Assembly (NCBI GenBank): GCA_950295325.1
Contig: OX485805.1
Span: 34,273,501-34,337,500, forward strand
DNA length: 64,000 bases
From: Polytrichum commune
Taxonomy: Eukaryota; Streptophyta; Polytrichopsida; Polytrichales; Polytrichaceae
Direction of reading: 5' to 3'
Shown: positions 32,254 through 63,243 of the stretch, piece by piece
Layout: every line of letters begins with the position of its first letter
Numbering within the stretch: position 1 is the stretch's first letter
The notes under the pieces: generated by a model
Seen by the model: the letters and a program-made list of their open reading frames with translations, nothing else
Told to the model about the DNA's origin: nothing
Databases searched by the model: none
Position numbers and translations under genes: made by a program

Positions 32254-32286
32254 CACGTAACACTATATTCGTTAAATTGAGACTTT
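32254..32286 (+). repeat. Left terminal inverted repeat of copy B
   Basis: 33 bp, starting CACGTAACACTATATTCGTT, perfectly complementary to 63164-63196. The outermost CAC may belong to the flank, because copy A matches only from GTAAC. No clear target duplication was found; a 2-bp CG duplication is possible if the true terminus is TAACAC. Confidence 0.88.
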
Positions 32287-32417
32287 TTGGGCATTTTGAG
32301 ACATTCACATAAATAAGAACAAGGATAAATGGAACACGTATTGGAGAAAGTTGTAAGATGCGAACACTTTGAAGCAGGTGTTTAGACCAAGAACCCCATA
32401 AATAACTCATATTTGTG

Positions 32418-32640
32418 ATGGTTTAGGGTGGGCAATCCAAATCTTAGACCACATTTAAGGGGAAACCTTAAAACATTCATATTATTGAACACAAAATATT
32501 AGAGCTTGTATGAATATGGTTTGGGTAGGGCAATCCAAACCATAGATCTTATTGAAGGGTTAATATGTTAACCAATATAATATTGCATACAAAATATTCC
32601 AAACTCATATTTGTGATGGTTTAGGTAGGGCAATCCAAAC
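32418..32640. repeat. Degenerate subterminal palindrome copies at the left end
   Basis: Three related segments with GGTTTGGGT-like left arms and CAATCCAAACC-like right arms near 32420, 32518 and 32618, spaced about 100 bp. They look like decayed versions of the family palindrome and lie 130-390 bp from the left TIR. Confidence 0.6.
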
Positions 32641-32806
32641 CTTAGACCATATGGAAGGGGAAATCATGTCTAACTTGTATTATTGCAAAAAAAAACATAC
32701 AAAGTGTGGCATGTAAAATGCATATCATGCTAACACCACACATGCATTGGATAGTGCGACCCAAAATGTTCTTGCCTATGGCCCAAAACCCTACGCCTAC
32801 TATGGC

Positions 32807-33124
32807 CTATCTAGCCTCGGATACTACCTCTTTTTCTTTTGCTTCATTTTCTTTTGCTTTTTTTTCTTTTGCCTCTTTTTCTTTTGCTGCAGCTTCTTTT
32901 GCTCGCATTGCTTCAACATTCCTGAAAATCTCCGCCCCGCGACTATAGCCATTCTTGGGGTGAACGCCATCAATAACACATTTTGTATTCCGTCGGCCGC
33001 CCGAATTATACGACGAAGAATTCGAATACGATGAAGTGGACTGTCTTGCATTTCTGGTCATGGAGTAGAAACGCTCCAACTCGATGGACGCACTAGACCG
33101 CATAGGTTTACGGGTGGGAGCAAC
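32807..33124 (-). CDS. Last exon of an unknown element gene (Lys/Glu/Ala-rich tail)
   Basis: Opens after a good acceptor (GCGTTGCAG at 33125) in phase 0 and encodes 105 residues to a stop at 32807. The first half is Ser/Asn-rich (TRKPMRSSASIELERFYSM). The second half is a highly charged, probably helical run of Ala, Lys and Glu. No known domain recognised. Gypsy G3 lies 43 bp upstream, in the intron separating it from 40544-40897. It is the gene end nearest the left TIR. Confidence 0.55.
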   Translation of the reverse strand, partial: VAPTRKPMRSSASIELERFYSMTRNARQSTSSYSNSSSYNSGGRRNTKCVIDGVHPKNGYSRGAEIFRNVEAMRAKEAAAKEKEAKEKKAKENEAKEKEVVSEAR

Positions 33125-33167
33125 CTGCAACGCGTCAACGCAAGAACACATGTGTTAGTTTAGGGAG

Positions 33168-34140
33168 TGTCGCAACCCTTGCTAGGTCCCTTAACACTCT
33201 TGCCAATTTTCGTTTCTAGCAAAGGTTACGAGCGCTAACCATTCGCATTCCGCCATGCTAATGGATAGCTCCTCTTACCCCGGACCAATAGTTCATAGGA
33301 GGGAACCAACCCTCCTACTTTGCTTTCGGGACTCACCCCTTAATCGGTAACCCATTTCCCCAATGTGGACTTCCATCCATGGAAGTCCAATCCTATGTTG
33401 ATCATCGCGTTGCCGGAGCAACACTACAACAACCCGAAGCATACTAGGCAACTATGGCCTCACAATAGGCCAAAGCCCATGGAGGCCTTGCCGTTCGGCC
33501 TCGGGTGGGTGAGGCCACACCACCTCACCCATATAAGCCTCTAGGACTCAACGCGGGGCCCCTACCCCACCGTCAACCAACCTCTTGTCTCTCTACCAAG
33601 AGTTGGGGCTAAGTGGACATTTTCCCTTAGCTGCTGGGCCTAGAACCCCCCCTGCAGCTTCAGACCATCATAACTTCCTTGTATGATGTCTGATTCCAGC
33701 AACCAACCACTCCATCTTCATCTACGCTTCACGTAGATGCCGATGGACTCCTCGCTTGCCCCATTCGGGCAAGTGGTGAGGAAGTTATGCCTGTTTGAAC
33801 CTTGGCAGTCCCGGGAATCACTCCCAGGCACTGCTGTACCAGGGCGCTGTCCCGGGACAGCGCCCCACTCAAATGGCCATAACTCCTAGCTCACACCTCG
33901 GATTGAGGTGTTCTTGAGCATTCTAGAATCACCACGCCATGAGCTACGCATAGCTCATGGCCTTACCCTTGTGCCTCCTAGTCTTCGTGGATGGGAGGCG
34001 TTCCCAACGCCCGGGGACCTCATCCACACTAGGATCACTTGGGCCCTTTCACCAACGGCGCCACAAGTCCCGGGTGTCACTCCGGGGTCCCCCTTGTGCC
34101 CATGGTGTTTCGGGCACTCCTCATGGAGAGGTGCGCGACA
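33168..34140 (-). repeat. G3 3' LTR
   Basis: 973 bp, bordered internally by the reverse-complemented polypurine tract at 34141-34152. Confidence 0.94.
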
Positions 34141-34942
34141 CTCACCCCCACCAAACAGAGTCGATGCCCTCATCGACTATACTCGTAGTCGGCACACCAA
34201 TTCTCAAGTTGCCATCCTCTATGGTGCGGCATTGTGTTTACCTTAGGGCGCGATCCCCACAATGCATCTTCAAATTTGGCATAGTCCCAAAGGTGTCGTT
34301 ACTAGGTGGTCCGTTAGCGACCTTGGAACTCCTCCAAGCACCTAACCTACACTAGACCCACCTACTTTGAGACTCACTTGGGTTGCCCCTCTTTTGGGGC
34401 CTCCCCCGTTAGGCTCCACTAGCCTAACATGACACATCTAGGCGAGACCTCAACGCTTCCACTAAGTTGTCTCGGTTGCAACTCCGAGATGGCTTTCCAT
34501 TGTTAAGCCACGCCTCGATCGCACGGGGGTGATGCCAAGTCCCGCCCGACTCGGTTCCCACTTTGCTCTTTCGAGACATGGGTTCATGACTCCCATGCGC
34601 CAACTCTCGTTAGCTCGCGGGTAGCACTTTTATGAGCACGCGCCATCACCTTGTCCCCGCCCGGACAAGCCCACAACTAAGAAGTTTCTTGGTTTTATCC
34701 AAGGCCCCTCCAAGCCATGGCCCCCAATTACTCGGCTTACCCAACCTAGTTTGGCATATCTATTCCCCCTCTTCCATTAACCAAGCACAAGTACAAGACT
34801 AGGACCTCATCTCATACTTTTCTCTTTGCACCACTAAAGTTTGGACTTTATTCCCTCAAGCCAAAGATCAAGTTCGTGTTGTGGAATAATTAGCCTCGAA
34901 GTTACGTGTGCTACTAGCGTCTCTCCCCCTCACTAAAGGAGA

Positions 34943-37900
34943 TTGATGTCCTCATCAATGCCTACGCTTCATTTTATTGGAATGTCTAGCCTTAGTTTCT
35001 TCAAAGTGCTTTACCAATTCCTTGGCGTTCATCATGTCTCTTGCCGCTACCCAAACGGCTTCTTTCCATGGTATCCTCATCATTTCACCAACTACTCCTT
35101 TGTACATTTTCTTCCTTTTCACTTGGGATTCCTACACTTGAGGATGCCCTCCTACCTCATGTTCCAAATGACGTCCACAAGGTCTGGAGGTGGCCTAATC
35201 ACTTGCTTGTGATCGGGCCACAAGGTGTTGTCCTTAAATGGCTTTAGGAATGAGACATGAAATGTCGGATGCACTTTGATCTTGGGCGGTAATTCCAACT
35301 TATACATGTCCTTGAACATTTATTCCACAATGGGAAACGGAGTTCCAATTTTGGACATGAACTTTGGAGTGAGGCCTTTCGGCTAAGTGAAGTTGTTCAC
35401 ATTCAACAACACCTTTTGGCCCACCTCATTCTCCACTTCGCATCTTCCGGCATTGACTTGCACTCCGTAGCACCTTCGGGCTTTCTCCACCAACAACTTG
35501 GTCATCTCCAAGACTTGTTTACCATCCTTGGCCAAGTCCTCACCATCTAGGTTGAACTCTAGTGTTAAATGTGCCCCCTCGAGAGCTAGGTTAATAGGTT
35601 GGAGCGCATCCACTCCATAAGCCACCACGAAAGACCACCCATTGGTAGCCAAGTGCGTGGCTACATTGCAATTACACTCCGCTCGACCCACATAGTCCGC
35701 CCAATCTCCTTGGTCCGCCCCCACCAAGTTCCTCAAGTATTGCTTCAAGACTCCATTCACACGCTCCGCTTTCCCATCCATTTGGGAATGCAAGGCCGTG
35801 CTAAACCTTAGTTTCATTCCGACCTCCTTAGAGAAATGCATTGAAAATGCACTTGTGAACTTTGGATCTTGATCCCACACAATCACTCTTGGCAACCCGT
35901 GGTGCCTCAACCATCCTTTGAGAAAAGTCTATGCGGTCTTCAACGCGGTGGCAGTTCCCACAATCGGCACCATGTGTGCCAACTTGGCAAACCGCTCTAC
36001 CATCAACAAGATGGCATCATACCCATGTGACTCCGGCAAACTTGTGATCAAGTCCATGCACATACAATGCCATGGCGCCGACGGGATAGGCAACGGTTGC
36101 AAGAAACCGCCTTGCTTTTGGTAAGAGGCTCGGTTCACTTGGCACTTTATTCACGCCTTCACAAAGTGGGTTATATCCTCCTTTATGCACCACCAATGGT
36201 ACCTCTTTGACACCATTCTATGGCGGTTGTTTCTTTCTCCTTTATGGCCGGCAATAGGACTATCATATTCCTCCTTCAAAACCAATAGCCTCAACTTGCC
36301 TTGTGGCACATACACCCGACTTTGCTTGCATTTGAACAATCCGTCCACGAACTTAACCTCTTTGAGCACCTTGCTCTTGCGAAGCTCACCTAAAAGCTTT
36401 TGTGCTTTGGGGTAGTTAATTTACCCCTCCTGTATCTTGCATCACAAGTTTCCTTCGCCGGCACACATTAGCCACAAGGTTTGGATGGTTCTCATTGCTT
36501 GGAACTCTTCCGGTCTACTTCGCGCATCCGGCACCACATTTCCTTGGTCCGGTTTGTGGATCAAATCCACCTTCATAAGCGCCAAACTATCATGCCACTG
36601 CAATGACTTGGCGCTCACTTGCGCTTGAATGTCAAAATTCTTTTAGGACACATTGTCCATGTAGACCTTTGCTTTGTGCGACCCCAAATAGTGTCGCCAC
36701 ATCTTCAAGCAATGCACTACGCCAAAGATGTTCTTTGTCATGAGTTGGTTGTCTTCTTTGACAACCATCGAGCTTCATGCTCCCATATGCAATGGCCATC
36801 CAATTACACATAATCCACCATTGGCAAAGTCACTCACCCCCGTATGCACCTCAAAAGGTTTGTCAAGCTCCGCGAACTTGAGCACGGGCGGCGAAGAGAA
36901 CTTGGTGTTAAGCTCCCCAAAGACTCGTGACAAACATCATCCCACTCTTGGGATAGCCATTTCTTCCACAAGTCGGACAAGGTGGGACAACCATCGAGCT
37001 TCATGCTCTCATATGCAATGGCGATCCATCTTGCATCAACATCCGCCAATGGTAAAGTCAGTCGCCCCCGTATGCACCTCAAAAGGTTTTTCAAGCTCCG
37101 CGAACTTGAACACGGGTGGTAAAGAGGACTTTGTCTTAAGTTCCCCAAAGACTTTGGGACAAGGCTCATCCCACTCTTGAGATAGCCATTTCGTTCACAA
37201 GTCGCACAAGGTTCGACCACCTTTAAGCTTAATGGTCCCATATGCAATGGGCATCCATCTTGGATCAACATCCACCAATGGTAAAGTCACTCGCCCCCGT
37301 ATGCACCTCAAAAGGTTTGTCAAATTCCGCAAACTTGAGCACGGGCGGCGAAGAGAACTTGCTCTCAAGCTTCCCAAAGGCTTTGTGGCAAGGCTCATCC
37401 CACTTTTGGGATAACCTTTTCTTGCACAAGCCGGACAAGGTTCGACAACCATGGCGCTTAATGCTCCTATAAGCAATGGTCATCCATCTTGGATCAACAT
37501 CCGCCAATGGTAAAGTCCTTCGCCTCCATGTGCACCTCAAAATGCTTATGAAAACCCGGAAACTTAACCACATCTTGTGAAGAGAACTTGCTCTTGAGCT
37601 TCCCAAAGGCTTGGTGACAAGGCTCATCCCACTCTTGGGATAGCCATTTTCCTCAATAAGTTGAATAGGATCCTAGCATCCTTCAAAAACTCTCGAATGA
37701 AGTGGTGGTAGTAGTTGGCTAGGCCAACAAATGACCTAAGCCCTTTTTGAATGAAAGGCCAATTCTCCTTTTGGATTGCCTTGACATTCTTCATGTTCGT
37801 CCACCAACTTCCTTTGTCACCACATACCTCAAGAACTCAATTTCTTGTTGAGCAAAGTTATTTTTCACTCCTTGGCGGTAACTTTTGGGCAACACATTGG

Positions 37901-39415
37901 CGAATACATCATTGTATCTCACCAACATCCCACCAAAGTGGTTTAGGGGAAGGCCCATCTTTCCTAGCCTCCCCATACGTTCTTTGGAGTTGCTCCAATT
38001 GAACCACGACCATTATGCTTTCTATTTTTCATTTGGTCCATTAAGACCAAATTCAACTTAGATCCTCCTACCATAGGAGTCCTTGTCAATTTGAACTTCA
38101 ATTCTTTGCCATTATGACACATCATAATGCACCGCAAGCACACCGGCTTGCACCTCACATCTATCATGTGAGTTTCGAAGAAGGCGGCCTTCACAATGAC
38201 ATGTATTTCATCTATTTCACATGGTGTGAAATTTTGACAAAATTCTAATGTCCCACATTGAAAGGTTACATGCATCGCGGCCTCCTTTGTCTCATGCGGT
38301 TTGCCTTTTCCAAACCGCACCTTGGTGGGCTTCACCACTCTACCAATCGGCAAACCCCAACTCCCTTGTGAGCTTTGGGGTCATGAAAGAATGCCTTAAT
38401 TCTTTGTCAACCCATGAGACGAGTCTCCCATTCATTTGAGCCTCAAGGTACAAAACACTTGGCCTCGGCTTAAGGCTACTAGCCTTGGCCACAAAGCCAT
38501 CGTCCAACATTTGGTCCTCGGCAACTTGGCTTGGCTTGGTCCGCAAAGCCAACTTTAAACATTTCGTCCGCGGGACAAATTGGTTTGGTGCCACAAAACA
38601 AATTCCAATAATTTGTCCACAAAACAAACATGTTTTCCCTTGATAGCACAAAGCCACCTTCCCACACTCCGTATGCGGCACGAACATGAATTGCCTTGGT
38701 AGGACAAACCCACCTTCCAACATTCCGTCCGCGGCATGAGTATGATTTGCCTTGGAAGCATAAAGCCACCTTTCAACATTCCGTTAGCGGCACCAACATA
38801 TTTTGCCTAAGTAAAATGAACCAAACAATTTGCACTCATTTCTTTGGGACCAACTTTGGCTAAAGCCACTTGTGGTGATGCGCCGCCAAACTTTTCTTCG
38901 GGACCATCGGATTCAATGATCTTGCAAACTTGATGATCCCCACCATGTCCTCAAGAAGCCTTGGGGACTTAAACAAGGCATCCACCACCCGCTTTTAAAA
39001 CCCCACCTAAAACGATGCATTTCTTAGAAAGCTCGTCCGTTTTAGGTGTATCCTTCATTTGTGCGTTTGAATAGCGCACATAGGCCTTAAGAGGCCCCGG
39101 GTGCCTCATTAGCACCAAGTTCATTTCAACATCCGAACCTTCGAAGCATCTCGAATTGAAATTTCAATCCAACATTAATACCCTCCAAGGTTTTGGGTGC
39201 ATTCGGTATTCTAGCCCCCGAATACTTTTCGAGGTTTGCGGGAGCCTTTTCAAAACACTCCTCCATTTTCCTCACCGAATCCACCCTCATGCCCACCATT
39301 GTCATTAGAACCAATGGTATGGTCAAATTCCATTTACACATGATCTTTGTTCCAATTTGAGCCTCACAACCTTTTGGAAACCCCGGGTCACCATCATAAC
39401 CCGCTTATATGATAG
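34943..39415 (-). pseudogene. G3 gag-pol remnants
   Basis: Chromodomain shadow near 34980-35200, integrase core 35383-36138 with HHCC-region remnant 36151-36369 (TSP/AGH and C-terminal contexts visible), four tandem RNase H-start units at about 36830-37640, retropepsin-like region 37964-38440 without active-site Asp motif, gag-like start near 39415. It cannot encode a complete polyprotein. Confidence 0.82.
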
Positions 39416-39456
39416 CCATGCTTCCCTCAAAGTGCTAGCTCAAGTATTGGAACCCT

Positions 39457-39468
39457 GCTCTGATACCA
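39457..39468 (-). other. G3 primer-binding site (tRNA-iMet)
   Basis: GCTCTGATACCA on the plus strand, 2 bp inside the 5' LTR. Confidence 0.92.
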
Positions 39469-39470
39469 AG

Positions 39471-40443
39471 TGTCGCAACCCTTGCTAGGTCCCTTAACAC
39501 TCTTGCCAATTTTCGTTTCTAGCAAAGGTTACGAGCGCTAACCATTCGCATTCCGCCATGCTAATGGATAGCTCCTCTTACCCCGGACCAATAGTTCATA
39601 GGAGGGAACCAACCCTCCTACTTTGCTTTCGGGACTCACCCCTTAATCGGTAACCCATTTCCCCAATGTGGACTTCCATCCATGGAAGTCCAATCCTATG
39701 TTGATCATCGCGTTGCCGGAGCAACACTACAACAACCCGAAGCATACTAGGCAACTATGGCCTCACAATAGGCCAAAGCCCATGGAGGCCTTGCCGTTCG
39801 GCCTCGGGTGGGTGAGGCCACACCACCTCACCCATATAAGCCTCTAGGACTCAACGCGGGGCCCCTACCCCACCGTCAACCAACCTCTTGTCTCTCTACC
39901 AAGAGTTGGGGCTAAGTGGACATTTTCCCTTAGCTGCTGGGCCTAGAACCCCCCCTGCAGCTTCAGACCATCATAACTTCCTTGTATGATGTCTGATTCC
40001 AGCAACCAACCACTCCATCTTCATCTACGCTTCACGTAGATGCCGATGGACTCCTCCCTTGCCCCATTCGGGCAAGGCTTGAGGAAGTTATGCCTGTTTG
40101 AACCTTGGCAGTCCCGGGAATCACTCCCAGGCACTGCTGTACCAGGGCGCTGTCCCGGGACAGCGCCCCACTCAAATGGCCATAACTCCTAGCTCACACC
40201 TCGGATTGAGGTGTTCTTGAGCATTCTAGAATCACCACGCCATGAGCTACGCATAGCTCATGGCCTTACCCTTGTGCCTCCTAGTCTTCGTGGATGGGAG
40301 GCGTTCCCAACGCCCGGGGACCTCATCCACACTAGGATCACTTGGGCCCTTTCACCAACGGCGCCACAAGTCCCGGGTGTCACTCCGGGGTCCCCCTTGT
40401 GCCCATGGTGTTTCGGGCACTCCTCATGGAGAGGTGCGCGACA
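39471..40443 (-). repeat. G3 5' LTR
   Basis: 973 bp. It is followed by the target duplication GGGAG at 40444-40448. Confidence 0.94.
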
Positions 40444-40975: not shown

Positions 40976-41951
40976 TGTCGCAACCCTTGCTAGCCCCCCC
41001 CTTGACCATCTTGCCAATTTTCAATTCTAGCAAAGGTTACGAGTGGCTAACCCTTCGCATACCGCCATGCTAATGGTTAGCTCCTCTAACCCCGGACCAA
41101 TAGTTCATAGGAGGGAACCAACCCTCCTACTTTGCTTTCGGAACTCACCCCTTAATCGGTAACCCATTTCCCCAATGTGGACTTCCATCCATGGAAGTCC
41201 ACTCCTATGTTGATCATCGCGTTGCCGGAGCAACACTACAACAACCCGAACCATACTAGGCAACTATGGCCTCACAATAGGCCAAAGCCCATGGAGGCCT
41301 TGCCATTCGGCCTCGGGTGGGTGAGGCCACACCACCTCACCCATATAAGCCTCTAGGACTTCACGCGGGGCCCCTACCCCACCGTCAACCAACCTCTTGT
41401 CTCTCTACCAAGAGTTGGGGCCAAGTGGACATTTTCCTTTAGCTGCTGGGCCTAGAACCCCCCAGCAGCTTCAGACCATCATAACTTCCTGGTATGATGT
41501 CTGATCATAACAACCAACCACGCCATCCTCATCTACGCTTCACGTAGATGCCGATGGACTCCTCACTTGCTCCATTTGAGCAAGTCTTGAGGAAGTTATG
41601 CCTGTTTGAACCTTGGCAGTCCCGGGAATCCCTCCCAGGCACTGCTGTACCAGGGCGCTGTCCCGGGACAGCGCCCCACTCAAATGGCCATAACTCCTAG
41701 CTCACACCTCCGATTGAGGTGATCTTGAGCATTCTAGAATCACCACGCCATGAGCTACGCATAGCTCATGGCCTTACCCTCATGCCTCCTAGTCTCCGTG
41801 GGTGGGAGGCGTTCCCAACGCCCGGGGCCCTCACCCACACTAGGATCACTTGGGCCCTCTCACCAACGGCGCCACAAGTCCCGGGTGTCACTCCGGGGTC
41901 CCCCTTGTGCCCATGGTGTTTCGGGCACTCCTCATGGAGAGGTGCGCGACA
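40976..41951 (-). repeat. G4 3' LTR
   Basis: 976 bp, same subtype as G2. The reverse-complemented polypurine tract follows at 41952-41963. Confidence 0.94.
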
Positions 41952-42751
41952 CTCACCCCCACCAAACGGAGTCGATGCCCTCATCGACTATACTCGTAGT
42001 CGGCACACCAATTCTCAAGTTGCCATCCTCTATGGTGCGGCATTGTGTTTACCTTAGGGCGCGACCCCCACAATGCATCTTCAAATTTGGCATAGTCCCA
42101 AAGGTGTCGTTACTAGGCGGTCCGTTAGCGACCTTGGAACTCCTCCAAGGACCTAACCTACAATAGACCCACCTACTTTGAGACTCACTTGGGTTGCCCC
42201 TCCTTTGGGGCCTCCCCCGTTAGGCTCCACTAGCCTAACATGACACATCTAGGCGAGACCTCAACGCTTCCACTAAGTTGTCTCGGTTGCAACTCCGAGA
42301 TGGCTTTCCATTGTTAAGCCACGCCTCGATCGCACGGGGGTGATGCCAAGTCCCGCCCGACTCGGTTCCCACTTTGCTCTTTCGAGACATGGGTTCATGA
42401 CTCCCATGCGCCAACTCTCGTTAGCTCGCGGGTAGCACTTTTATGAGCACGCGCCATCACCTTGTCCCCGCCCGGACAAGCCCACTGCTAAGAGGTTTCT
42501 TGGTTTTATCCAAGGCCCCTCCAAGCCATGGCCCCCAATTACTCGGCTTACCCAACCTAGTTTGGCATGTCTATTCCCCCTCTTCCATTAACCAAGCACA
42601 AGTACAAGACTAGGACCTCATCTCATACTTTTCTCTTTGCACCACTAAAGTTTGGACTTTATTCCCTCAAGCCAAAGAACAAGTTCATGTTGTGGAGCAA
42701 TTAACCTCGAAGCTAAGTGTGCTACTAGCGTCTCTCCCCCACTAAAGGAGA

Positions 42752-45700
42752 TTGATGTCCTCATCAATGCCTACGCTTCATTTTATTGGAATCCTTAGCC
42801 TTAGTTTCTTCAAAGTGCTTCACCAATTCATTGGTGTTCACCATGTCTCTTGCCGCTACCCAAACGGCTTCATTCTATCCTCACCATTTCACCAAGTAGT
42901 CCTTTGTACATTTTCTTTCATTTTTACTTGGGCTTCCTACACTTGAGGATGGCCTCCTACCTCATGTTCCAAATGACGTCCACAAGGTGGGGAGGTGGCC
43001 TAATCACTTGCTTGTGATCGGGCCACAAGGTGTCGTCCTTAAATGGTTTTAGGAATGAGACATGAAATGTCGGATGCACTTTGATCTTGGGCGGTAATTC
43101 CAACTTATACATGTCCTTGAACACTTGTTCCACCATGGAAAACGAAGCTCCAATTTTGGACATGAACTTTTGGAGTAATGCCTTTGGGCAAGGTGAAGTT
43201 GTCCACATTCAACAACACCTTATTGGCCCACCTCATACTCCACTTCGCGTCTTCCGGCATTGATTTGCACGCCGTAGCACCTTCGGGCTTTCTCCACCAA
43301 CAACTTGGTCATCTCCAAGACTTGTTTACCATCCTTGGCCAAGTCCTCACCATCTTGGTTGAACTCTAGTGTTGAATGTGCCCCCTCGAGAGCTAGGTTA
43401 ATAGGTTGGAGCGCATCCACTCCATAAGCCACCACGAAAGACCACCCCTTGGTAGCCAAGTGCGTGGCTACATTGCAATTACACTCCGCTCGACCCACAT
43501 AGTCCGCCCAATCTCCTTGGTCCGCCCCCACCAAGTTCCTCAAGTATTGCTTCAAGACTCCATTCACACGCTCCGTTTTCCCATCCATTTGGGAATGCAA
43601 GGCCGTGCTAAACCTTAGTTTCATTCCGACCTCCTTAGAGAAATGCATTGAAAATGCACTTGTGAACTTTGGATCTTGATCCCACACAATCACTCTTGGC
43701 AACCCGTGGTGCCTCAACCATCCTTTGAGAAAAGGCTATGCGGTCTCCAACGCGGTGGCGGTTCCCACAATCGGCACCATGTGTGCCAACTTGGCAAACC
43801 GCTCTACCATCAACAAGATGGCATCATATCCATGTGACTCCGGCAAACTTGTGATCAAATCCATGCACATAGTATGCCATGGCCCCGACGGGATAGGCAA
43901 CGGTTGCAAGAAACCGCCTTGCTTTTGATAAGAGGCTCGGTTCACTTGGCACTTTGTTCACGCCTTCACAAAGTGGGTTATATTCTCTTTTATGCACCGC
44001 CAATGGTACCTCTTTGACACCATTCTATGGCAGCTTTTTCTTTCTCCTCTATGGCCGGCAATAAGACTATCATATTCCTCCTTCAAAACCGATAGCCTCA
44101 ACTTGCCTTGTGTCACATACACCCAACTTTGCTTGCACTTGAACAATCCGTCCACCAACTTAACCTCTTTGAGCACCTTGCTCTTGCGAAGCTCACCTAA
44201 AAGCTTTTGTGCTTTGGGGTAGTTAATTTACCCCTCCCGTATCTTGCATCACAAGTTTCCTTCGCCGGCACACATTAGCCACAAGGTTTGGATGGTTCTC
44301 ATTGCTTGGAACTCTTCCGGTCTACTTCGCGCATCCGGCACCACATTTCCGCGGTCCGGTTTGTGGATCAAATCCACGTTCATAAGCGCCAAACTATCAT
44401 GCCACCGCAATGACTTGGCGCTCACTTGCGCTTGAATGTCAAAATTCTTTTAGGACCCATTGTCCATATAGACCTTTGCTTTGTGCGACCCCAAATAGTG
44501 TCGCCACATCTTCAAGTAATGCACTACGGCAAAGAAGTTGTTTGGCATGAGTTGGTTGTCTTCTTTGATAACCATCGAGCTTCATGCTCCCATATGCAAT
44601 GGCCATCCATCTTAAATCAACAATCCGCCATTGGCAAAGTCACTCACCCCCATATGCACCTCAAAAGGTTTGTCAAGCTCCGCGAACTTGAGCACGGGCG
44701 TCTAAGAGAACTTGCTCTCAAGCTCCCCAAAGACTTGGTGGCAAGGCTCCTCCCAGTCTTGGGATAGCCAATTCTTCCACAAGTCGGATAAGGTCGGATA
44801 ACCATCAAGCTTAACACTCTCATATGCAATGGCCATCCATCTTACGTTAACCATCCGCCAATGGCAAAGTCACTCGCCCCCCCCGTATGCACCTCAAAAG
44901 GTTTGTCAAGCTCCGCGAACTTGAACACGGGTGGCAAAGACAACTTTGTATTAAGCTCCCCAAAGACTTGGGGACAAGGCTCATCCCACTCTTGGGATAG
45001 CCCTTTCTTTCACAAATCGCACTAGGTTCGACAACCATTAAGCTTAATGCTCCCATATGCAATGGACATCCATCTCGGATCAACATCCGCCAATTGTAAA
45101 ATTACTCGCCCCCATATGCACCTCAAAAGGTTTGTTAAAGTCCGCGAACTTAAGCACGGGCGGCGAAGAGAACTTGTTTTTGAGCCCCCCAAAGGCTTGG
45201 TGACAAGGCTCATCCCACTCTTGGGATAGCCATTTTCCTCAATAAGTTGAATAAGATCCTAGGAACCTTAGAAAACTCTCGAATGAAGTTGTGGTACTAA
45301 TTGGCTAGGCCAACAAATGACCTAAGCCCTTTTGAATCAAGGGCCAATTCTCCTTTTGGATTGCCTTGACATTCTTCATGTTCGTCCACCAACTTCCTTT
45401 GTCACCACATACCTCTAGAACTCAATCTCTTGTTGAGCAAAGTTATTTTTCACTCCTTGGCGGCAATTTTTTTTTGGGCAACACATTGGTGAATACATCC
45501 TTGTATCTCACCAACATCACACCAATGTTGTTTGGGGGAGGCCCATCTTTCCTAGCCTCCCCATACGTTCCTTGGAGTTGCTCCAATTGAACCACGTCCA
45601 TTATGCTTTCTATTTTTCATTTGGTCCATTAAGACCAAATTCAACTTAGATCCTCCTACCATAGGAGTCCTTGTCAATTTGAACTTCAATTCTTTGTCAT

Positions 45701-47023: not shown

Positions 47024-47049
47024 AGTGCGAGCTCAAAACTTGGAACCCT

Positions 47050-47061
47050 GCTCTGATACCA
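47050..47061 (-). other. G4 primer-binding site (tRNA-iMet)
   Basis: GCTCTGATACCA on the plus strand, 2 bp inside the 5' LTR. Confidence 0.92.
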
Positions 47062-47063
47062 AG

Positions 47064-51223: not shown

Positions 51224-52551
51224 CATTGCTGCAAAAATCGGTTTGGATCCCCCGAAAACGTTGAAGATGCAGTCCCCTCTCTTGGTGAGGGTCCTCATCA
51301 TCCGCAGGTAGAACTCCATGCGCAGCTCATCCGCGGGGTAGTTGGCGTACTTCGCCTCGTCATACAAGCTCCTGCTGGTACCCAACCCTTATTGGACTTG
51401 GAAGAGCTTTTCCATCCTGGCTATAGGATGGTTGGGCACCTTAAGTCAGCTTTGTACACGAAGTACAAGCACAACACGTTGACGATCTTCGTCTTCTTGT
51501 CTTTCAACGTGCTGTACGCCCCCTCCGCCGGTGCAGCAACGTAGTGAGATTTCGAGACGGCATACTCCGGCTGCAATTTGCGCACGATCTCGTAAACCTG
51601 CTCTGCCCTCCTGTCCTCGACAATCCAGAGCCAGACGTCGACCTCCCTGAATTTGGGGCTGGCGTAGTCCACGAACTTCGACAAGAAAGGATCGTAAAAA
51701 GGGGTGCTCATAGTCCCCTCGAATGAGGCTCCAGGGATATTCCTGAAATCTATCATTCCGAAGGGGAAGCGGTCCCCAGCTTTAGTCCTGATCGCCTTCC
51801 TGGACTCAGAGCCCGGCCAACCTTGGATCCTGAGAGGCTCGACGGTGACCATGTTGAATTGCGCATCGCCTTCGAAACTGACGATCTTCTTCTCCTTTAT
51901 GAAGTTGGAGAAGGCCCGCGCTGAGTGTTCGGGAAGCACCCGGTTCCTCCCCCCCTTCACGAGCTTGGATCTGAGGAAGTCGTCTCCCGCCTCCCTCATG
52001 AGTGCCGCCATGGACGCACTAGTGAACTTATATTCGGCTTTGAAGGCCCTCCAGTGCGCCTCGTCGACCTCTCCGTCCACGATGAGCTTCTTCTCTGGCA
52101 CAAGCTTGTGCAGCTCTTGGACGATGGTCGTCTTCTTCTTCCTGTTCTCCGTCCATTCCTTCATGGTGTAGCATGAAGGGACGAAGATCTTGGGTTTGGT
52201 GAAGACGATCTTGGGGTGGACCCAACATCTCTTCGCCGTCATCTCCACGTGTAGGATGTGGGACGCTGCTTTTCCCATCTCTGTCTCGGAAAGACCTTGA
52301 AGCGCTCTGAAGAACTCCCTCACCAGAGGCTTCATTTGCTTGAAGCGCGTAGTCTGGTTGAAGAGCATGCCGGTGTCGGGGTCCATAAGGTCCCCCGTCT
52401 CATGTTTTTCAAAAACACTCCTCCATTTTCCCCACACGGAGTCGGACGCGGTGATCAAATACATTTCTCCTCGCAACTCGTTATACTTTTTTTGCTTGTG
52501 GCTAGCATTGTCTATCGAGGAGAATTTATTGATCATCTGATATTTGAAGTC
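51224..52551 (-). pseudogene. Exon 2: methyltransferase-like domain (damaged)
   Basis: Opens after acceptor CGTGTGCAG in phase 0 (DFKYQMINKFSS). It is 1328 bp, one base short of phase 0. The frame shifts near 51441, and a TAA at 51389-51391 stops the resumed frame. Before that the exon is open for about 370 codons. Near its end GDCIFNVFGGSKPIFAAM resembles methyltransferase motif I (GD.VLD.F.GSGTT..AA) with its Gly-rich loop altered. I could not find a clean DPPY/NPPF catalytic motif; FGMIDFRNIPG is the closest candidate. The fold may be retained without catalysis. Confidence 0.55.
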
Positions 52552-52814
52552 CTGCACACGTAGCCAACAATTCATGTTAGACAACATCTCATGGAATAAC
52601 AAATGTAACAGCAGTTTGGGTCGATCGACCCAAACTATAAACCTGGTAAAGACAACAAAGCCATGGAAGAGTTTGGGTCGAGCGACCCAAACTATAAACC
52701 TGGTAAAGACAACAAAGCCATGCAAGAGTTTGGGTCGAGCGACCCAAACTATGAATTTGTTGAAGACACTAAAACAATGAAAGAGTTTGGGTCGGTCGAC
52801 CCAAACATACTCAC
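52552..52814 (-). other. Intron 1 of the cargo gene, with four palindromes
   Basis: Donor GAG|GTGAGT, acceptor GTGCAG. Palindromes lie at 52614, 52671, 52738 and 52784 (centres AT, AG, AG, GT). Three sit in short tandem units containing the word AACCTGGTAAAGACAAC. Confidence 0.7.
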
Positions 52815-54116
52815 CTCCCATTTGGGGTTCTTATCTTTAGCATTCTCCCTTTCCCTGGGAGGCCTGCCATAAAACTCCCACACCTCCCTCGAGGCCATGA
52901 TGTTTCTGATCCACGATGCCTGATAGGCCCTCTTTTTGTTTCCCATGTTGAAGAACCTGGAGATGTCGCTGAGGACCGTCTCGTTGTCCGACCAAACCAC
53001 CAAAGCCTTCCAAACTTTTAGTCTCTCCTTCTGGTTGTTCGGGTCGTTCCACTCGGTCATCAGCTGGATTTTTTTTGATGCCTCCACACTGTGCTGCCCG
53101 TCAATCAACCAGAAGTCTCCTTTGGAGATTGTCGGCCACATATCAGGCGTCGGCATTCTCTTCAACCCTTGTGGCATGACAACAATCGTCTGCCTGTCGT
53201 CCTTGAACTGCCCGCCCAAGATTTGAGCGACCATCCAGTCGACGTAGGCGTCCTCCTTGGCTCGGACACATTTCTCGGGTGGCGCAAGGTGGCACTGCGC
53301 AATGTTGACCTCGAACTTGAAGTCCCTGCCCATGAAGAAGCAGTGCAGGCATTTTGTTTCGAAGTTGGTGTTTATTTTTTGTATTTCGCCTGCATCCACC
53401 TCCTGGCCAGGCTTCGGCATCCGGAGCTCCGGGGAAACATGCTCGTCAGTCATCACCGATGACTCTCTTCCCCTTTTGGAAGGGGTCGTTTGACGGCTTG
53501 TTGATGGCGTTGTTGTAGTACTTGTCCGTCTCGACTCCACAGGGACCGCCCGCGGTTTCCTCACAGTTTGTGGTCTTGAGGACCCTGCGCCTTCTTCCGT
53601 CGTTGCCTTCCGCCTCACAGGCTGTTGTGTCTTGGGTTTGCTTTGCAGCGCCTTGTTTAGAACCGTGATGGCCTGTTTTAACTTTGTGAACCTGCTCGCA
53701 ACCTTCGTGTTGGTTACACTGCCATCTATGAATATGGCCTCCGGTTGTATGGTTTCAGGGTCGACGCAGGTCTCCTTGGCGTACAGGGGGTCGAAGGGCT
53801 CGGAGAACTGGTGCATGAACATGTGGACGTTCTGCACGGCGGAGTTCTCCAGTATGACGTCTACATAGTCCCCGAGAGACTGGACAGACGCAACCTCCCA
53901 TTCCGTCAGCGTTGCCCAGGTGTGCTGCTCGTGGGTCCCCACCTTCACCACGAATAGCAGCTTGAACATGGATGCCTTCACCACCTGAACGGACCATGCC
54001 AGAACGACGCCATCTTTTGGGACGTAAGAATCGTCCTGTGGAGTTTCATACTCCTGCCAAAGGTGGTCTGGCGCGAGCATGAACCACCTTTCACCTGGTC
54101 TCTTTTTAGGGGCCAT
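52815..54116 (-). CDS. Exon 1: ParB-like domain protein start
   Basis: 434 codons from ATG 54116 (MAPKKRPGERWF), which directly follows an acceptor-like TTGGGTTGCAG, so a leader intron lies upstream. The first 130 residues are unrecognised. A basic Ser/Thr-rich linker with KRGRE follows. A ParB/sulfiredoxin-like region then contains HLAPPEKCVRAKEDAYVDWM, IVVM, and FWLIDGQHSVEASKKIQ around residues 335-350. The last corresponds to the GxxR-type ParB box, with Ser at the usual Arg. Bacterial ParB domains bind DNA at palindromic parS sites and hydrolyse CTP; whether either activity is kept here is unknown. Confidence 0.68.
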
Positions 54117-54143
54117 CTGCAACCCAAGAAATCGAAACTGTGA

Positions 54144-55174
54144 GTTTCGGTCGATCGACCCAAAGTATTGCAATGTGCATTTAACATTTGGAGGATTGAC
54201 TCAAACATTACTTAATTTTCAAAGTCGTTTTAAAAGATCTTTTAGATTTTAAATTGTGGTTTAGGTGGTCACCCTGCAATGTTTGAGTCGAGCGACCCAA
54301 ACATGATGAGGCTGCAAATTTAGGTAGTTTAACCCATTCATTTCAGAGTGCAATGTTTGGGTCGAACGACCCAAGGTCCCAAACATTTACTTAATTTTCA
54401 AAGCTCTTTTATATTTTACAATGTGTTTTAGTTCTTCTCCGTGTAATGTTTGGGTCGACCGACCGAAACATGTTAGGCTGTAAATTTAGGTAGCTCAACC
54501 CAATCATTTCAGACTGCATTGTTTGGATCGCACGACCCAAACATTTACTTAATTTTGAATGTTCTTTTATATTTTATAATGTGGTTTGTTCTTCTCCCTG
54601 TAATGTTTGGGTCGAGCGACCCAAACATGATGAGGCTGCAAATTTAGGAAGCTCAACCCATTCATTTCAGACTGCAATGTTTGGGTCGAACGACCCAAAC
54701 ATTTACTTCATTTTCAAAGTTCTTTTATATTTTACTATGTGGTTTGTTCTTCTCCCTGTAATGTTTGGGTCGAACGACCCAAACATGATGAGGCTGCAAA
54801 TTTAGGTAGCTCAACCCATTCATTTCAGACTGCAATGTTTGGGTCGAACGACCCAAACATTTACTTAATTTTCAAAGTTCTTTTATATTTTACAATGTGG
54901 TTTGTTCTTCTCCCTGTAATGTTTGGGTCGAGCGACCCAAACATGATGAGGCTGCAAATTTAGGAAGCTCAACCCATTCATTTCAGACTGCAATGTTTGG
55001 GTCGAACGACCCAAACATTTATTTAATTTTCAAAGTTCTTTTATATTTTACAATGTGGTTTAGTTCTTCTCCCTGTAATGTTTGGGTCGAGCGACCCAAA
55101 TATAATGAGGCTCCAATGTTTGGGTCGCTCGACCCAAACAAGACGCTGCAATGTTTGGGTCGAACGACCCAAAC
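54144..55174. repeat. Palindrome array upstream of the cargo gene (about 14 copies)
   Basis: Units of 158 bp, clearest between about 54520 and 55080, each carry two palindromes, one with centre AA and one mostly AG. The array lies directly upstream of the acceptor before the cargo start codon, so it probably sits in the leader intron. Frames through it give artefactual repeats. Confidence 0.9.
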
Positions 55175-55789
55175 ATTTAGTTCATTTTAGGCTGCAATTC
55201 AAATATTTATTATATTTTAATATGAGTTTGGGTGGTCTCCCCAAACTACTGTGTTTCCAAATGCATGTTTAATGCTTGGGCAACATATACAATGCTTATG
55301 CATTGTATATGTAACAGGAACCTAAAGGGAATGATGCAAATTGTGTGCACTGATGCAAATTGCTTACCTTGTCTTTCAAACTCTTGAAAGCTGCTCTCAC
55401 AATCTGCTTCTTACAACCAGACTCAGAAACTCTGTTGTGGCACTAAAGAACAACTCTCACAAAGATCTCAGAAACACAATGAATCTCTCAAGCACCCTAA
55501 AACTTTCTCACAAACCCCCTGATTCTTGCAAACTCAGGCCTAATTTGAAAGACCTCTACCTTTCTATCACACTCGACCGTGCTCACTTCTACTCAACCTA
55601 AAATCACTCCATGCATGAAATTTACAAAACAAGTAAGGAATTCAATACAATAAACCGCTCCGAACTCACTCAAAGCTAACACTCTGGACCAAGAAGAGAG
55701 AATAACAAGAGGAAGACAATAACAAGAGGAATAGAATGAGAGAAGAGGAGGAGAAGCATCATAGAGGAGGACAGGAACGAAGGAGAAAG
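55175..55789. other. Leader region of the cargo gene in copy B
   Basis: No gene recognised. It includes the palindrome ATACAATGCTTATGCATTGTAT-like element near 55287-55308 and is collinear with 31350-31910 of copy A in inverted orientation. Confidence 0.5.
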
Positions 55790-58030: not shown

Positions 58031-58039
58031 TTGACAGAA

Positions 58040-58353: not shown

Positions 58354-59392
58354 GTTTGGGTCGGTCGACCCAAACCCAACCTTACAGTGTGGGTGCTCTC
58401 TGTTGTGAGCCTGAACCCATCCTACCTCAAGGTTTGGGTCGATCGACCCAAACCCAGCCCTATAGTGTGGGTGCTCACTGATGTGAGCCTGAACCCATCC
58501 TGCCTCAAGGTTTGGGTCGATCGACCCAAACCCAGCCCTACAGTGTGGGTGCTCACTGATGTGAGCCTGAACCCATCCTGCCTCAAGGTTTGGGTCGATC
58601 GACCCAAACCCAGCCCTACAGTGTGGGTGCTCACTGTTGTGAGCCTGAACCCATCCTGCCTCAAGGTTTGGGTCGATCGACCCAAACCCAGCCCTACAGT
58701 GTGGGTGCTCACTGTTGTGAGCATGAACCCATCCTGCCAAAAGGTTTGGGTCGGTCGACCCAAACCCAGCCCTACAGTGTGGGTGCTCACTGTTGTGAGC
58801 CTGAACCCATCCTGCCAAAAGGTTTGGGTTGGTCGACCCAAACCCAACCCTACAGTGTGGGTGCTCACTGTTGTGAGCCTGAACCCATCCTGCCAAAAGG
58901 TTTGGGTCGGTCGACCCAAACCCAGCCCCAAAGTGTGGATGTTGTGTGTAGTGAGCCTGAACTCATCCTGCCTCGAGGTTTGGGTCGCTCGACCCAAACC
59001 CAGCCCTCTAAGTGTGGGTGTTGTCTTTAGTGAGCCTGAACCCATCCTGCCAGAAGGTTTGGGTCGATCGACCCAAACCCAGCCCTCTAAGTGTGGGTGC
59101 TCTCTGGAGTGACTCTAAACCCATCCTGCCAAAAAGTTTGGGTCGCTCGACCCAAACCCAGCCCCCTAAGTATGGGTGCTCATTATCGTGACCTTAAACC
59201 CATCCTGCCAAAAGGTTTGGGTCGCTCGACCCAAACCCAGCCCCCTAAGTATGGGTGCTCCTTGTCGTGACCTTAAACCCATCCTCCCAAAAGGTTTGGG
59301 TCGCTCGATCCAAACCCAGCGCCTAAGTGTGGGTGCTCTCTGTATTGAGCCTGAAACCTCCTCCCAAAAGGTTTGGGTCGCTCGACCCAAAC
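58354..59392. repeat. Copy B palindrome array upstream of the transposase-like gene (about 14 copies)
   Basis: Units of about 78 bp, each with one palindrome and a shared TGTGGGTGCTC...GAGCCTGAACCCATCCTGCC spacer. Centre dinucleotides run GT, AT (four times), GT (three times), then mainly CT, showing local duplication of units. Arm mismatches are rare. The long open frames across it are artefacts of the repeat. Confidence 0.92.
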
Positions 59393-59605
59393 CCAGCCTC
59401 TAAGTGTGGATGGGATCTGGATGACAGTGTGGCCACTGGCCATCCAAAACCTTTACGAACCCAATGGCATATTAGTCATATGAACTTGTATGAACACTGA
59501 GTATTTGCAATTTTGTTTATATATGATGGTTTTTGTGGTCTTCGATTTGAACCTACAATTTTTGTGATTTTTTGACAATGTTCAATGTTCATGTGTGTAG
59601 GCAGA

Positions 59606-62600
59606 ATGGATGGGTTTAGTGAAATTGGGGATTGGTCATCTGATGACATGGCCACCTGGCCATCTGCATCTGATGATGACTTAGACATTGTCGGGGCTAC
59701 TATGGCTGACAGTGCGGATGAAGATCATTTGGATTTACCTTCGTCTTCCGTACCGCAGTGTCCCATTGTTGAATGTACGGGACTTTCAAGGGCTTCGTGG
59801 GTGAATTTGGAGGTGATACTTCTTAACGATAGTGGAGTTGTTGTGGCGGAGGGGATTTGCCGTAACACCCATCCGCAAGATTGCATTGATGAAAACCCGC
59901 TTGGCACCGAGGACGTTGGGGTTGTCATATTGGAGTCGGTCGTTCATTCCGAGGTGGATCCCACTCATAGGTTCTCCCTCCGTAGGTGGCCATTGAGGAA
60001 TGTCACAATTGATGGAGTTAGCTTGCGTGAACATGAGCAACGACACATGCAAATCGAAAAGGAGGTGCAATCAAACATGCGGCCGCGCAAGGGTCAAAGA
60101 AAGTACGATACATTGGCACGTCCTGCTCCGTCTGCAACTGATTGTAAACGTCAAAGGTTGCTCGGGGAGGAGTCCATTAGAGAAGTTGCCACAAAGGATT
60201 GTTGTGTGCATCGTTGTTGCCAATTGTTTCCAAGGGATAAATTGAAGGCCATCCGCGAAGAAATGTGGCTTGGAGATTTCCGTCTAAGATCCACAAAAAA
60301 ACTTGATGTCCATAGGGCGATACATGTGAATGGGATGGGTCGCAAGGTCATCACCATTGAAAGCATGGACGTGTGTTGTAAGGCATGGTACACCATTCAC
60401 GGTGTGTCGAAAGCGGACTTTATCGACAAGCTGCTTATGCCAAGGAAGGCCACCGGTCCCGTCACCATGGTAATGTGGGTTTAAAGAAGCCTAGGGAAGC
60501 AACAAGGCAAGCAACGGCCACTCTAGCAACCATCATTGTCCCCCTTGCCGATGCAATGCCGCACAAAACACGCACGCTCACAACCGGTGAAAAGGTTGTG
60601 GAGAAAGTTCTTCCCACAGGCACAAAATGGAAAGACATATTGTTGGACGTGAATGCAGTTGGCGAGAAGATTGGGTTGGAGCCAATTTCATTGTCAAAAT
60701 TGAGTGCAATTAAGAAACAAAACTTTAGCGAATACATTACAAAAAGACGAGGGGACAAATTTGCCAAGTGCTCTAATTGCGAGAAGTTGAAGCGCCTCCG
60801 GGATGCACACACGATGGGTACCGAGTCATATGCAGCGCATCAATTGAACTATTTCAAGCACGTAAACATGCAAGAGGCACACCGTAATGATTATTACACA
60901 AATAGAGCTTTGTCCATCTCCAGGCCCTTGGAGGTTCTTACGGTCATCCATGACAAAATGGACCATGCCAAAACAGCCTCCCCATGTTTTGCAAATCGAA
61001 TCAAGGCCACGGATGGGTTTTTCAAGTTGCATGTATCGGTTACAGGTGAACTTCGAAACAATGTCATGACATACCCTAAATGTTATGGTTTTTTATTCCG
61101 TGATGTACTTGAGAACATGGATTCACTCAAAATGGTTTAATTATATCTAATCACGTTGGGTTGGCATTGCAGGAATGATTGCACATGGACACGGTGATGT
61201 CAAGTTTGCTCATTATGCTCTTGATTTGTATCCAGCGGATTCAAACCACACAATAGGGTCATTTGCAAGGCTTTTACGTGATTTAGAGAAACCGCCAGCC
61301 TATTCTTCAGGATTGTTATTTGAAAACACGGGTTCAACACCTCTATATGAAGCGTTGTTGGATGGAAAAGATGTATGCTTTCATTCGTTGCCAGAGCCAC
61401 CCAGTGATCCCGTGATTGCCAAAAAGTTGCCTCCCACTTTGCGTGTCCAATTGGACAATTGTGCCAAGGACAATAAAAGTAGATATGTTTTTGCATATTG
61501 GTCGTTGTTGGTTGCAAAAGGCATTTTCAAGGAGGTTTTTGTGTCCTTCCTATTGGTAGGCCACACGCACGATGATATTGATGCATCTTTTGGGCGGTGG
61601 AGCATGAAGTTGCGGGAGGAGGATTTCCCTACAATCCTGTTATTGATGAAGTCGTACATGGATTTGGATAACGTTCCGGTTATCCCCCATATGATTGAGG
61701 AGGTGCCAGACTTCAAGGCATTTATAGAACCTTATATTCGAAGTGGAGCTCACCGATTGATCGGGCATACGAAGGCACAACAATTCCGCTTCTATATGCG
61801 TGACGATGGTGTCCCGGCCATGCAATACAAGTTGTTGTGCACGACACAAGACTGGAGCCCGCCGGAGGGTCTTCTTGTGTGGCGCGTGGATGCGGATGGA
61901 AAGACCATGTTACCGGATGGGGAGCCTAGGCCTTGCAAGCCAATAGCCATGAAGAATTTGGAGGATATTTTGAAAGGTATATCAGGCTTCATACAATATT
62001 GGGAGAGTTTGAAAATAGCGGATGTTGGCGGATCATGTTGGCATCGTTATGGGAGTTGGATACATTATTGGACACATGTTCGTGCCGCCTTGGCAGACCT
62101 CCACCAAGATAGCCCTCATACTTTGAGGCATGGATTTTGGCCACAAACACGAGTCGATGTACAAGCTTCGGAGCCTAGTCTTTTGGGAAATGGAGAGGTT
62201 CGACAGGAGTTTGATGTGGACGACCATTACGTGGGGCCGGCTAGTAGTCGTCCCCCACCATCTTTCCTCATTGCAGTGGATTATCATGAAGGTTATATGC
62301 TCATTTTACGTCCTGGAGACGAGACATATGCAAAGCCAGTGTGGGTGGCAAGAGCTTTGTCCAATCCCAATTTTGTAACTTCCAGCCCTCATTTTCGACA
62401 GATACAAGTGGAGTACTATCGACCGACAGCAAGGAATGAAGATGTGATTCGGCATTATACAGGCTGGGATACAAACCCTAACTCTCGGTGGAAGGTGGAT
62501 TTTTAGCACGGTCCATCTTGGGTAGATACAGATTCCATATTCATAGCATGGAAACCACGGAAACACCATAGTGGATCAGTGTCCATCCCTCAAAAGTACA

Positions 62601-62658
62601 TAACTTTTGCAAAAGACAACCTTGCTCGGATTGCACAAGAAGCAACCCACGTTGAATG
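59606..62658 (+). pseudogene. Copy B DUF7869-type putative transposase
   Basis: The first coding exon follows acceptor GTGTGTAG at 59600; ATG is at 59606. The intron before the last exon is 61046-61173 (G|GTGAAC ... TTGCAG). Family features: Cys-rich KDCCVHRCCQLFP, DVCCKAWYTIHGVSKADF, CSNCEKLKRL, VIHDKMDHAK, then in the last exon HGHGDVKFAHYALDLYP, LDNCAKDNKSRYVFAYW and FLLVGHTHDDIDASFGRW. Asp residues of DKMD, LDNC and HTHDDID could form a DDE/D-like triad. Damage relative to copy A: 1-bp loss near 60420, loss of 418 bp at 60826-60834, and a TAG at 62504 that removes about 50 C-terminal residues. Confidence 0.82.
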
Positions 62659-63163
62659 AGAAGTTGGTAGGATTGTGTTAGCATGATTATAGTTTAATAC
62701 GTAATTATAGCAATATAAATTACACATATGTGTGCTCTTCAAAATTGGGGCAGAGTTTGGGTAGAACTTACGAATACTATATTGTTTGGAGTTGGATGAA
62801 TATCCATTTACTATATTTCAAGCTGCAATTGAAGTTCATCTTATTATTATGCTTGGGACTATATTCTCGAATGAAGAAACATGCATTTATTACATGCACT
62901 TTGTATGTTGCAATGTCTATATTCTATTGAACATGCTAATAATAGAAATCATTTTATATATATTTTTGGGTGAAACTTGTTTGAAGTGCTCTACCCAATG
63001 TGTTTTTGTTGATGAAGTTGGTGTCGAGTGCTCTACCATATGTGCTTATGTCCGCACATCATAGATTTGGGATATTAGAACATATAATATAATTGAGATT
63101 GTTGACAATATAGTTTCGGGCCTCTTCAAGTTCTTTGATCCATATATTAATTTGAGACTAGAG
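62659..63163 (+). other. Copy B 3' flank between transposase-like gene and right TIR
   Basis: A/T-rich and non-coding; nearly identical to 16832-17333 inverted. Confidence 0.7.
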
Positions 63164-63196
63164 AAAGTCTCAATTTAACGAATATAGTGTTACGTG
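63164..63196 (-). repeat. Right terminal inverted repeat of copy B
   Basis: Exact reverse complement of 32254-32286 over 33 bp. Confidence 0.88.
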
Positions 63197-63243
63197 TGAT
63201 GACATGTCAGCAAAGTAGAGGTAAAGTGGGGAATAAAATTACT

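Follow-up and report, generated by a model that had tools for sequence, protein, structure and literature searches.

What kind of mobile element places a DUF7869 gene beside a divergently transcribed multidomain gene in a moss genome, and what does the second gene do for it? The question is raised by a 64,000-nucleotide stretch of Polytrichum commune DNA (C3:34273501-34337500; hereafter the window), in which an earlier note, made from the sequence alone, had described a terminal inverted repeat (TIR) transposon of about 16.6 kb holding both genes. We followed the element, whose copy in the window we call copy B, through the genome of the window (407.8 Mb in 64 contigs). Taking the evidence jointly, we give a probability of about 0.6 to the reading that it is a giant Sola-1-type cut-and-paste transposon whose second, accessory gene encodes an element-specific regulator of transcription that is addressed to a palindromic DNA motif.

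Exact ends and genome-wide copies of the element

Copy B starts with AACACTATATTCG and is flanked on either side by ACGT (32255-32258 and 63192-63195), the left and right target-site duplications. Its left TIR of 28 bp, AACACTATATTCGTTAAATTGAGACTTT (32259-32286, plus strand), is a perfect inverted match to the right TIR (63164-63191, minus strand). The earlier note had reported perfect TIRs of 33 bp, and a perfect 33-bp inverted repeat is indeed present at 32254-32286 and 63164-63196, but it is made up of the 28-bp TIR, the 4-bp ACGT duplication and one chance match of the outermost C/G, the duplication having been counted as TIR because ACGT is itself palindromic. The element spans 32259-63191, that is 30,933 bp with its nested insertions, and its net length of 16,583 bp agrees with the size given before. 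The insertions set aside are two long terminal repeat (LTR) elements that are no part of the transposon proper, one at 33168-40443 (5-bp duplication GGGAG, LTRs 99.6% identical) and the other at 40976-48039 (5-bp duplication TATGA, LTRs 100% identical over 976 bp); their designation as gypsy is that of the earlier note.

Genome-wide, the 28-bp core has 589 forward and 595 reverse matches at two mismatches or fewer, 1,184 in total, as against none for the reversed control pattern. The 90 perfect sites listed on contig C1 form 35 convergent neighbour pairs; in 34 of these the two sites are less than 50 kb apart, and in 20 their spacing is 14-18.5 kb; tail-to-tail neighbours within 50 kb were not found among these sites, and same-strand neighbours within that distance number four. 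Since C1 makes up 19% of the genome, its 34 pairs suggest that the element is probably present in hundreds of copies, a figure extrapolated from this contig. A perfect 4-bp duplication sits just outside AACAC in eight of nine TIR pairs on C1, the exception being a 36.9-kb pair, and in all eleven members of a second set (ten fetched elements, E1-E9 and E10s, together with copy B); the two sets overlap by five, so that 14 of 15 distinct pairs carry a perfect duplication. CACTA/EnSpm elements have CACTA ends and duplications of 2-3 bp, unlike the AACACTA ends and 4-bp duplications found here. We conclude that the TIR-bounded transposon is real and bears the signature of cut-and-paste transposition.

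Two divergent genes lie between the ends

Elements E1-E9 (16.0-17.4 kb) were picked by their span. In all nine the accessory gene lies on the minus strand near the left end, in four exons, and the DUF7869 gene on the plus strand near the right end, in two, so the arrangement that had been described for the window is that of every one of these full-size copies, with defined ends and with TIRs at consistent distances from the genes. All six exon matches are open in two of these copies (E5 and E7), and accessory exon 3 is open in E1, E5, E7 and E8 (498-499 amino acids); splice sites were inspected in E5 only. In the 4.8-kb E10s an internal deletion has removed the greater part of the accessory gene together with the beginning of the DUF7869 gene, and both ends and a duplication remain. 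Exons of copy B were mapped from E5, accessory exons 2 and 3 and DUF7869 exon 1 in two pieces each, and both genes of this copy are defective, with a frame shift in DUF7869 exon 1, a stop in its exon 2 and shifts in accessory exons 2 and 3.

The association extends to the rest of the genome. A DUF7869 profile search gave 1,491 first-look candidates, of which 150 were scored and all 150 lay above the cut-off, and the profile matched none of 14 control genomes. Accessory exon 1 gave 1,105 candidates, 88 scored, with 91 matches; a listed DUF7869 match lies within 40 kb of 39 of the 91 and within 12 kb of 35, as against a mean of 0.8 and a maximum of 6 neighbours within 12 kb in 1,000 trials of random placement. 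Every one of the 35 gene pairs within 12 kb is divergent, and so is one of the four farther ones. On C1, where perfect TIR pairs cover 1.0% of the contig, 11 of 15 accessory matches are enclosed by one, and a perfect TIR site lies within 20 kb of all 15.

The DUF7869 protein as the probable transposase

In copy B, exon 1 of the DUF7869 gene (59606-61047, plus strand, frame-shifted near 60421) holds the first Asp motif and exon 2 (61172-62656, plus strand, early stop at about 62505) the QLDN and VGHTHDDID motifs, with a PF25273 match at E 1.4e-41. The conserved motifs HDKMDH, QMDN and GHTHDDID make up a DDD triad, the strand and helix order of the predicted core is RNase H-like, and all 50 of the matches listed for the structural model are DDE recombinases. 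In the Foldseek search with this better model no match reached E <= 0.001; a first model (18 sequences, predicted local distance difference score 63) and its Foldseek search had given nothing useful, and searches of solved structures by sequence, with DUF7869, exon 1 and exon 2, gave no credible match. Relatives of the searched proteins were not found in viral contigs. The nearest named relatives come from Physcomitrium, with a 939-amino-acid protein 49% identical to that of the element, and from Ceratodon. On the strength of motifs and predicted fold, the DUF7869 protein is very probably the transposase of the element, belonging to the DDD enzymes and built on an RNase H-like core. The name DUF7869 was not found in the literature searched, and a Pfam domain of unknown function would in this way gain a likely role, that of catalytic core in a DDD transposase whose TIRs and duplications have been mapped.

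The same genome holds a second DUF7869 family (692-amino-acid class; L059, L060 and L061), whose right end is common to all three copies. By eye its TIR, ATGGGGATATTAACTAAAATGAGAC, resembles that of the first family, AACACTATATTCGTTAAATTGAGAC, and the three 3.1-kb pieces examined contain none of the palindromes described below.

A multidomain accessory protein

Once spliced, the accessory product of E5 has 1,651 amino acids and runs from an N-terminal region through a ParB-like stretch (LIDGQHSVEA), a methyltransferase-like part in exons 2-3 and an acidic, proline-rich region to a phosphatase domain of NIF/FCP1 type. On the minus strand of copy B, exon 1 (52815-54116), which has 42 relatives in other contigs, encodes the N-terminal region and the stretch IDGQHSVEA; exon 2 (51224-52551, frame-shifted near 51443, relatives P0163-P0165) encodes a part that motif reading likens to beta-class methyltransferases; exon 3 (49434-50907, frame-shifted) encodes the end of that part and then a long acidic, probably disordered region; and exon 4 (48113-48922) encodes the FCP1/NIF-type HAD phosphatase domain.

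The fusion of ParB, methyltransferase-like and FCP1 parts named in the earlier note holds to different degrees along its length. The phosphatase is borne out by PF03031 (E 4.4e-15 on the window exon), its first motif reading DLNGV, and TIGR02251 matches the same exon at E 3.1e-8, below the cut-off of that model. The ParB likeness is weak by profile, with the PHROG family 'ParB-like partition protein' at E 0.0075 on one of six proteins and DUF6551, again weakly, at E 0.024 on two of 15; ParB-like profile matches fell on relatives only, with none on the exon of the window itself. Methyltransferase profiles matched none of three proteins in Pfam and gave no relevant match in NCBIfam, where accessory exons 1-3 returned chance-level matches only, and the methyltransferase-like assignment draws on motif reading and on published precedent. 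A search at the scale of the full-length protein yielded three matches as unspliced readings, which does not show absence elsewhere. A literature search that paired Sola with FCP1/CTD phosphatase and anti-silencing turned up nothing relevant, and a fusion of an FCP1/NIF domain to a ParB/methyltransferase-like protein was not found in print.

In catalytic methyltransferases motif IV reads D/N/S-P-P-Y/W/F. In the six sequences compared, the corresponding position of the moss protein reads DFRNIP or, for E2, DFRSIP, which suggests that the methyltransferase-like part probably serves to read or hold DNA and not to methylate it. The same residues bear on the alternative that the accessory protein is catalytically active as an N6-adenine or N4-cytosine DNA methyltransferase and marks the element that encodes it. 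This was proposed, as epigenetic self-modification, for the Ectocarpus Sola-1 element, where ParB-like and methyltransferase parts are likewise encoded on the strand opposite the transposase (PMC12477816), and it would agree with the motif-I-like stretch GDCIFNVFGGSKP, identified by eye, which is kept with small changes. Given the altered motif IV and the missing profile match, we regard methylation as an unlikely activity.

Palindromic sites accompany both genes

The palindrome GTTTGGGTCG-NN-CGACCCAAAC has 9,231 matches in the genome and its control pattern none. Full-size elements carry 22-31 perfect core palindromes each, and the deletion derivative E10s carries none. Of the 229 palindromes in nine elements, 95 are on the transposase side, all within 2 kb upstream of the gene, and the remainder are on the accessory side: 42 in intron 2, 29 in intron 1, 9 in intron 3, 16 in exon 3 and 38 in the 1.2 kb upstream. 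None lies in the element ends (0 in 13.7 kb of left ends and 0 in 4.8 kb of right ends from nine copies), in accessory exons 1, 2 and 4, in the middle region or in the transposase gene. In copy B there are 19 core matches on the accessory side, in exon 3, introns 1-3 and the upstream region (49392-55175), and 12 in an array of 78-bp tandem units upstream of the DUF7869 gene (58355-59393). Read as protein, the palindrome appears in 15 of the 42 accessory relatives from other contigs, 14 times just behind exon 1, and in none of 120 DUF7869 relatives.

With up to four mismatches allowed in the 18 arm bases, ten elements hold 237 perfect sites and 69, 12, 14 and 35 sites with one, two, three and four mismatches; this loose count replaces a statement that the arms are 100% conserved, which was withdrawn because perfect arms had been the criterion for choosing the sites. 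In E5 and E6, 94-100% of the sites retain the G and C that lie just outside the searched core, whereas the flanks agree at 28-77%, and the arrays of the window differ in period (35-158 bp) and in consensus unit. It thus seems, from these comparisons, that the palindrome itself and not a longer repeat unit is what is conserved.

Palindromes also occur in other settings. A 63-bp tandem array at 1-276 of the window has five copies and is perhaps the edge of another element, and two clusters on C1 (462875-478028 and 2154319-2159887), spaced by 32 bp in places, lie away from perfect TIR pairs and perhaps belong to another family or to mutated copies.

A possible role in element transcription

The reading that we favour assigns these sites to the accessory protein. 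Its ParB-like/methyltransferase-like part would recognise the palindromes, which precede both genes and also lie within the introns of the accessory gene. The FCP1-like phosphatase part would act at these sites, either on chromatin factors or on the transcription machinery (the tail of RNA polymerase II), and transcription of the element's genes would thereby continue in the face of host silencing, in the manner of VANC proteins in VANDAL elements. We infer that the protein acts through the palindromes on transcription of the element, VANC being the closest working model. More tentatively, and with less than even confidence, the fusion of ParB-like, altered methyltransferase-like and FCP1-like parts might be a self-recognition and anti-silencing factor, directed by the two to three dozen palindromes of its element, that is independent of VANC and works by dephosphorylating the RNA polymerase II tail.

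VANDAL elements are Mutator-like. In VANDAL21 of Arabidopsis the targets of VANC are motif arrays in the non-coding DNA of its own element (PMC5735166, PMC10398659), and the moss element shares with that system, as the cited accounts describe it, an element-encoded protein other than the transposase, dense arrays of a short motif in non-coding parts and tandem repeats that vary between relatives. It differs in duplication length and transposase, in a motif that is palindromic where that of VANDAL is 9 bp and directional, and in the presence of palindromes in one exon as well (16 of 229). Because Mutator-type elements make duplications of 7-12 bp (PMC10741241) and the moss element makes duplications of 4 bp, it is not a VANDAL member, though it may work like VANC.

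A competing explanation is that the transposase binds the palindromes, or that they form hairpins in transcripts, and that the accessory protein does something else. Short repeated sites serve the transposase in CACTA-type elements, and a palindrome of 22 bp is able to form a hairpin, with sites lying in introns. Against it, the palindromes are lacking at both element ends and lie upstream of both genes, and E10s has both ends and a duplication and no palindrome, though its deletion may postdate insertion. We consider this explanation improbable, about on a par with active methylation, the two being the main rivals of the favoured reading.

Relation to Sola and other known elements

The earlier note knew of no described superfamily with this gene set, which is probably wrong. 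Sola elements have a DDD transposase and 4-bp duplications, are known from the moss Physcomitrella and in some cases exceed 15 kb (PMC10741241, PMC9033089), with TIRs of 11-1124 bp (PMC10741241), and the 21.5-kb Sola1-1_Ec32 of Ectocarpus encodes a 1,104-amino-acid ParB-like and DNA methyltransferase protein opposite its transposase strand, similar Sola-1 elements from green and red algae being cited in the same study (PMC12477816). The moss element has the 4-bp duplication (14 of 15 pairs), the predicted DDD/RNase H-like core, a 28-bp TIR and a full size of 16.0-17.4 kb, both within the Sola ranges, and, as in giant Sola-1, an accessory gene on the opposite strand (in 9 of 9 elements and in each of the 35 cases in which the two genes lie within 12 kb). 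It is probably a giant Sola-1-type variant in a moss, likened to Sola by features and descriptions and not by transposase sequence; a new superfamily is unlikely, because the triad, duplications, size, host and opposite-strand ParB/methyltransferase-like gene all fit the Sola-1 giants.

Sola1-1_Ec32, as far as its account goes (PMC12477816), agrees in being a giant DNA transposon with its transposase on one strand and a ParB-like and methyltransferase-like accessory gene on the other. The moss protein is longer (1,651 against 1,104 amino acids), adds a long acidic region and a phosphatase domain of FCP1/NIF type, and has what looks like an altered catalytic motif in its methyltransferase-like part; its element has palindrome arrays, of which the available part of the Ectocarpus account mentions none. 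Nor do the parts available of the three Sola accounts cited (PMC12477816, PMC10741241, PMC9033089) mention the FCP1 fusion or the palindrome system, at the latter of which no literature search was aimed. Physcomitrella Sola elements share the moss host, the 4-bp duplications, the DDD transposase and, for some Sola, a size above 15 kb, but the available text (PMC10741241, PMC9033089) states neither that the 49%-identical Physcomitrium DUF7869 protein is a Sola transposase nor that there is an accessory gene. The Sola2-Fanzor elements of dictyostelids (PMC3627910) are likewise described as Sola with an added protein and 4-bp duplications; their accessory protein, unlike ours, is a TnpB relative and not ParB/FCP1, and their duplications are AT-rich.

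That the DUF7869 elements form a separate superfamily, Sola-like only in 4-bp duplications and DDD triad, appears slightly less probable still than the two alternatives above. The likeness to Sola does come from review descriptions and not from sequence comparison, and DUF7869 goes unnamed in the literature searched, but size, moss host and the opposite-strand ParB/methyltransferase-like gene agree with Sola-1 in addition to those two features.

Selection on the accessory gene and probable exchange of halves

Purifying selection on the accessory gene is strong. The ratio of nonsynonymous to synonymous divergence (dN/dS) in exon 1 (ParB) is 0.04-0.13 in the seven of 13 comparisons with defined dS, dS being saturated in the other six; between subfamilies it is 0.04-0.09 in exon 2, 0.07-0.18 in exon 3 and 0.09-0.22 in the phosphatase exon, against 0.10-0.28 in the transposase exons, with values up to 0.38 in transposase exon 1 for E1 and for B versus E6. 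Among near-identical copies the ratios are unstable, up to 1.84 (exon 3). Exon 2 had at one point been taken for a hypervariable middle exon, which was rejected, the correct frame giving 76-85% identity between subfamilies.

It follows that 'cargo', the term used before for the second gene, is too weak for a gene under such selection and tied to the motif system of its element. Genes without a known use are frequent in giant elements (PMC12477816) and FCP1/NIF domains are common in hosts, yet a useless passenger captured from the host is very improbable for a gene present in all nine full-size copies, selected over largely saturated synonymous divergence, and with intron palindromes common to relatives at 66-89% identity. 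Finally, a chance or low-copy repeat between ordinary flanking genes, for which no supporting evidence was found, is refuted by the 1,184 TIR matches against none in the control, the 4-bp duplications, the convergent spacing and the co-location of genes and TIRs.

The two halves of the element differ in relatedness. E2 and E6 are 95.3% identical in the transposase half and only 73-80% in the accessory half; E4 is 90% identical to E6 in the accessory half, but its transposase exon 2 is nearer E5 (97.6% protein identity), E6 and E5 being at 92.7%. Such patterns suggest that halves have probably been exchanged between subfamilies. A giant transposon with an accessory protein of bacterial type thrives in a moss, two of nine copies being open in all six exons, and offers, with one protein and one palindrome recurring together, a testable case of how giant transposons may escape silencing.

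Related copies and other repeats of the window

As the earlier note had stated, the DUF7869 gene is also present in two further copies. Copy A (16802-32074, minus strand) has the right end and the DUF7869 gene (PF25273, E 2.8e-42), is 97% identical to copy B over the DUF7869 part, and contains a 408-bp insert and an LTR element (20660-27727); it was rejected as a complete element, its left end not being found in the window. Copy C (about 15799-16804, plus strand) is a partial gene, a DUF7869 exon-1 fragment 84% identical to copy B and, as protein, 92.5% identical to exon 1 of E5, into which copy A has inserted its end. This end, AACATTATATTC, sits directly in the copy C exon, where copies A and B read on, and gives further support for the exact element ends. 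The 408-bp insert (19171-19578) in the DUF7869 exon of copy A shows a duplication of 9 bp, GCATATGAC; its inverted ends (CACGGG...) are imperfect, and by eye it resembles a Mutator-type miniature inverted-repeat transposable element.

Adjoining copy B, a C-rich low-complexity array of CCCGTCC/CCCGTTCC-like units occupies 63219-64000 with periods of 17-96 bp. Four related LTR elements each contain a 229-233-bp tandem repeat of 2.9-3.9 units (7518-8415, 24260-24924, 36760-37649 and 44570-45235). A minus-strand reading frame at 1871-4987, copia-like by eye, lies beside or under the LTR element at 4880-12010 (duplication GCATC), and a 120-bp tandem array of 7.8 copies with 96% matches, at 12736-13673, has an open reading frame across much of its length.

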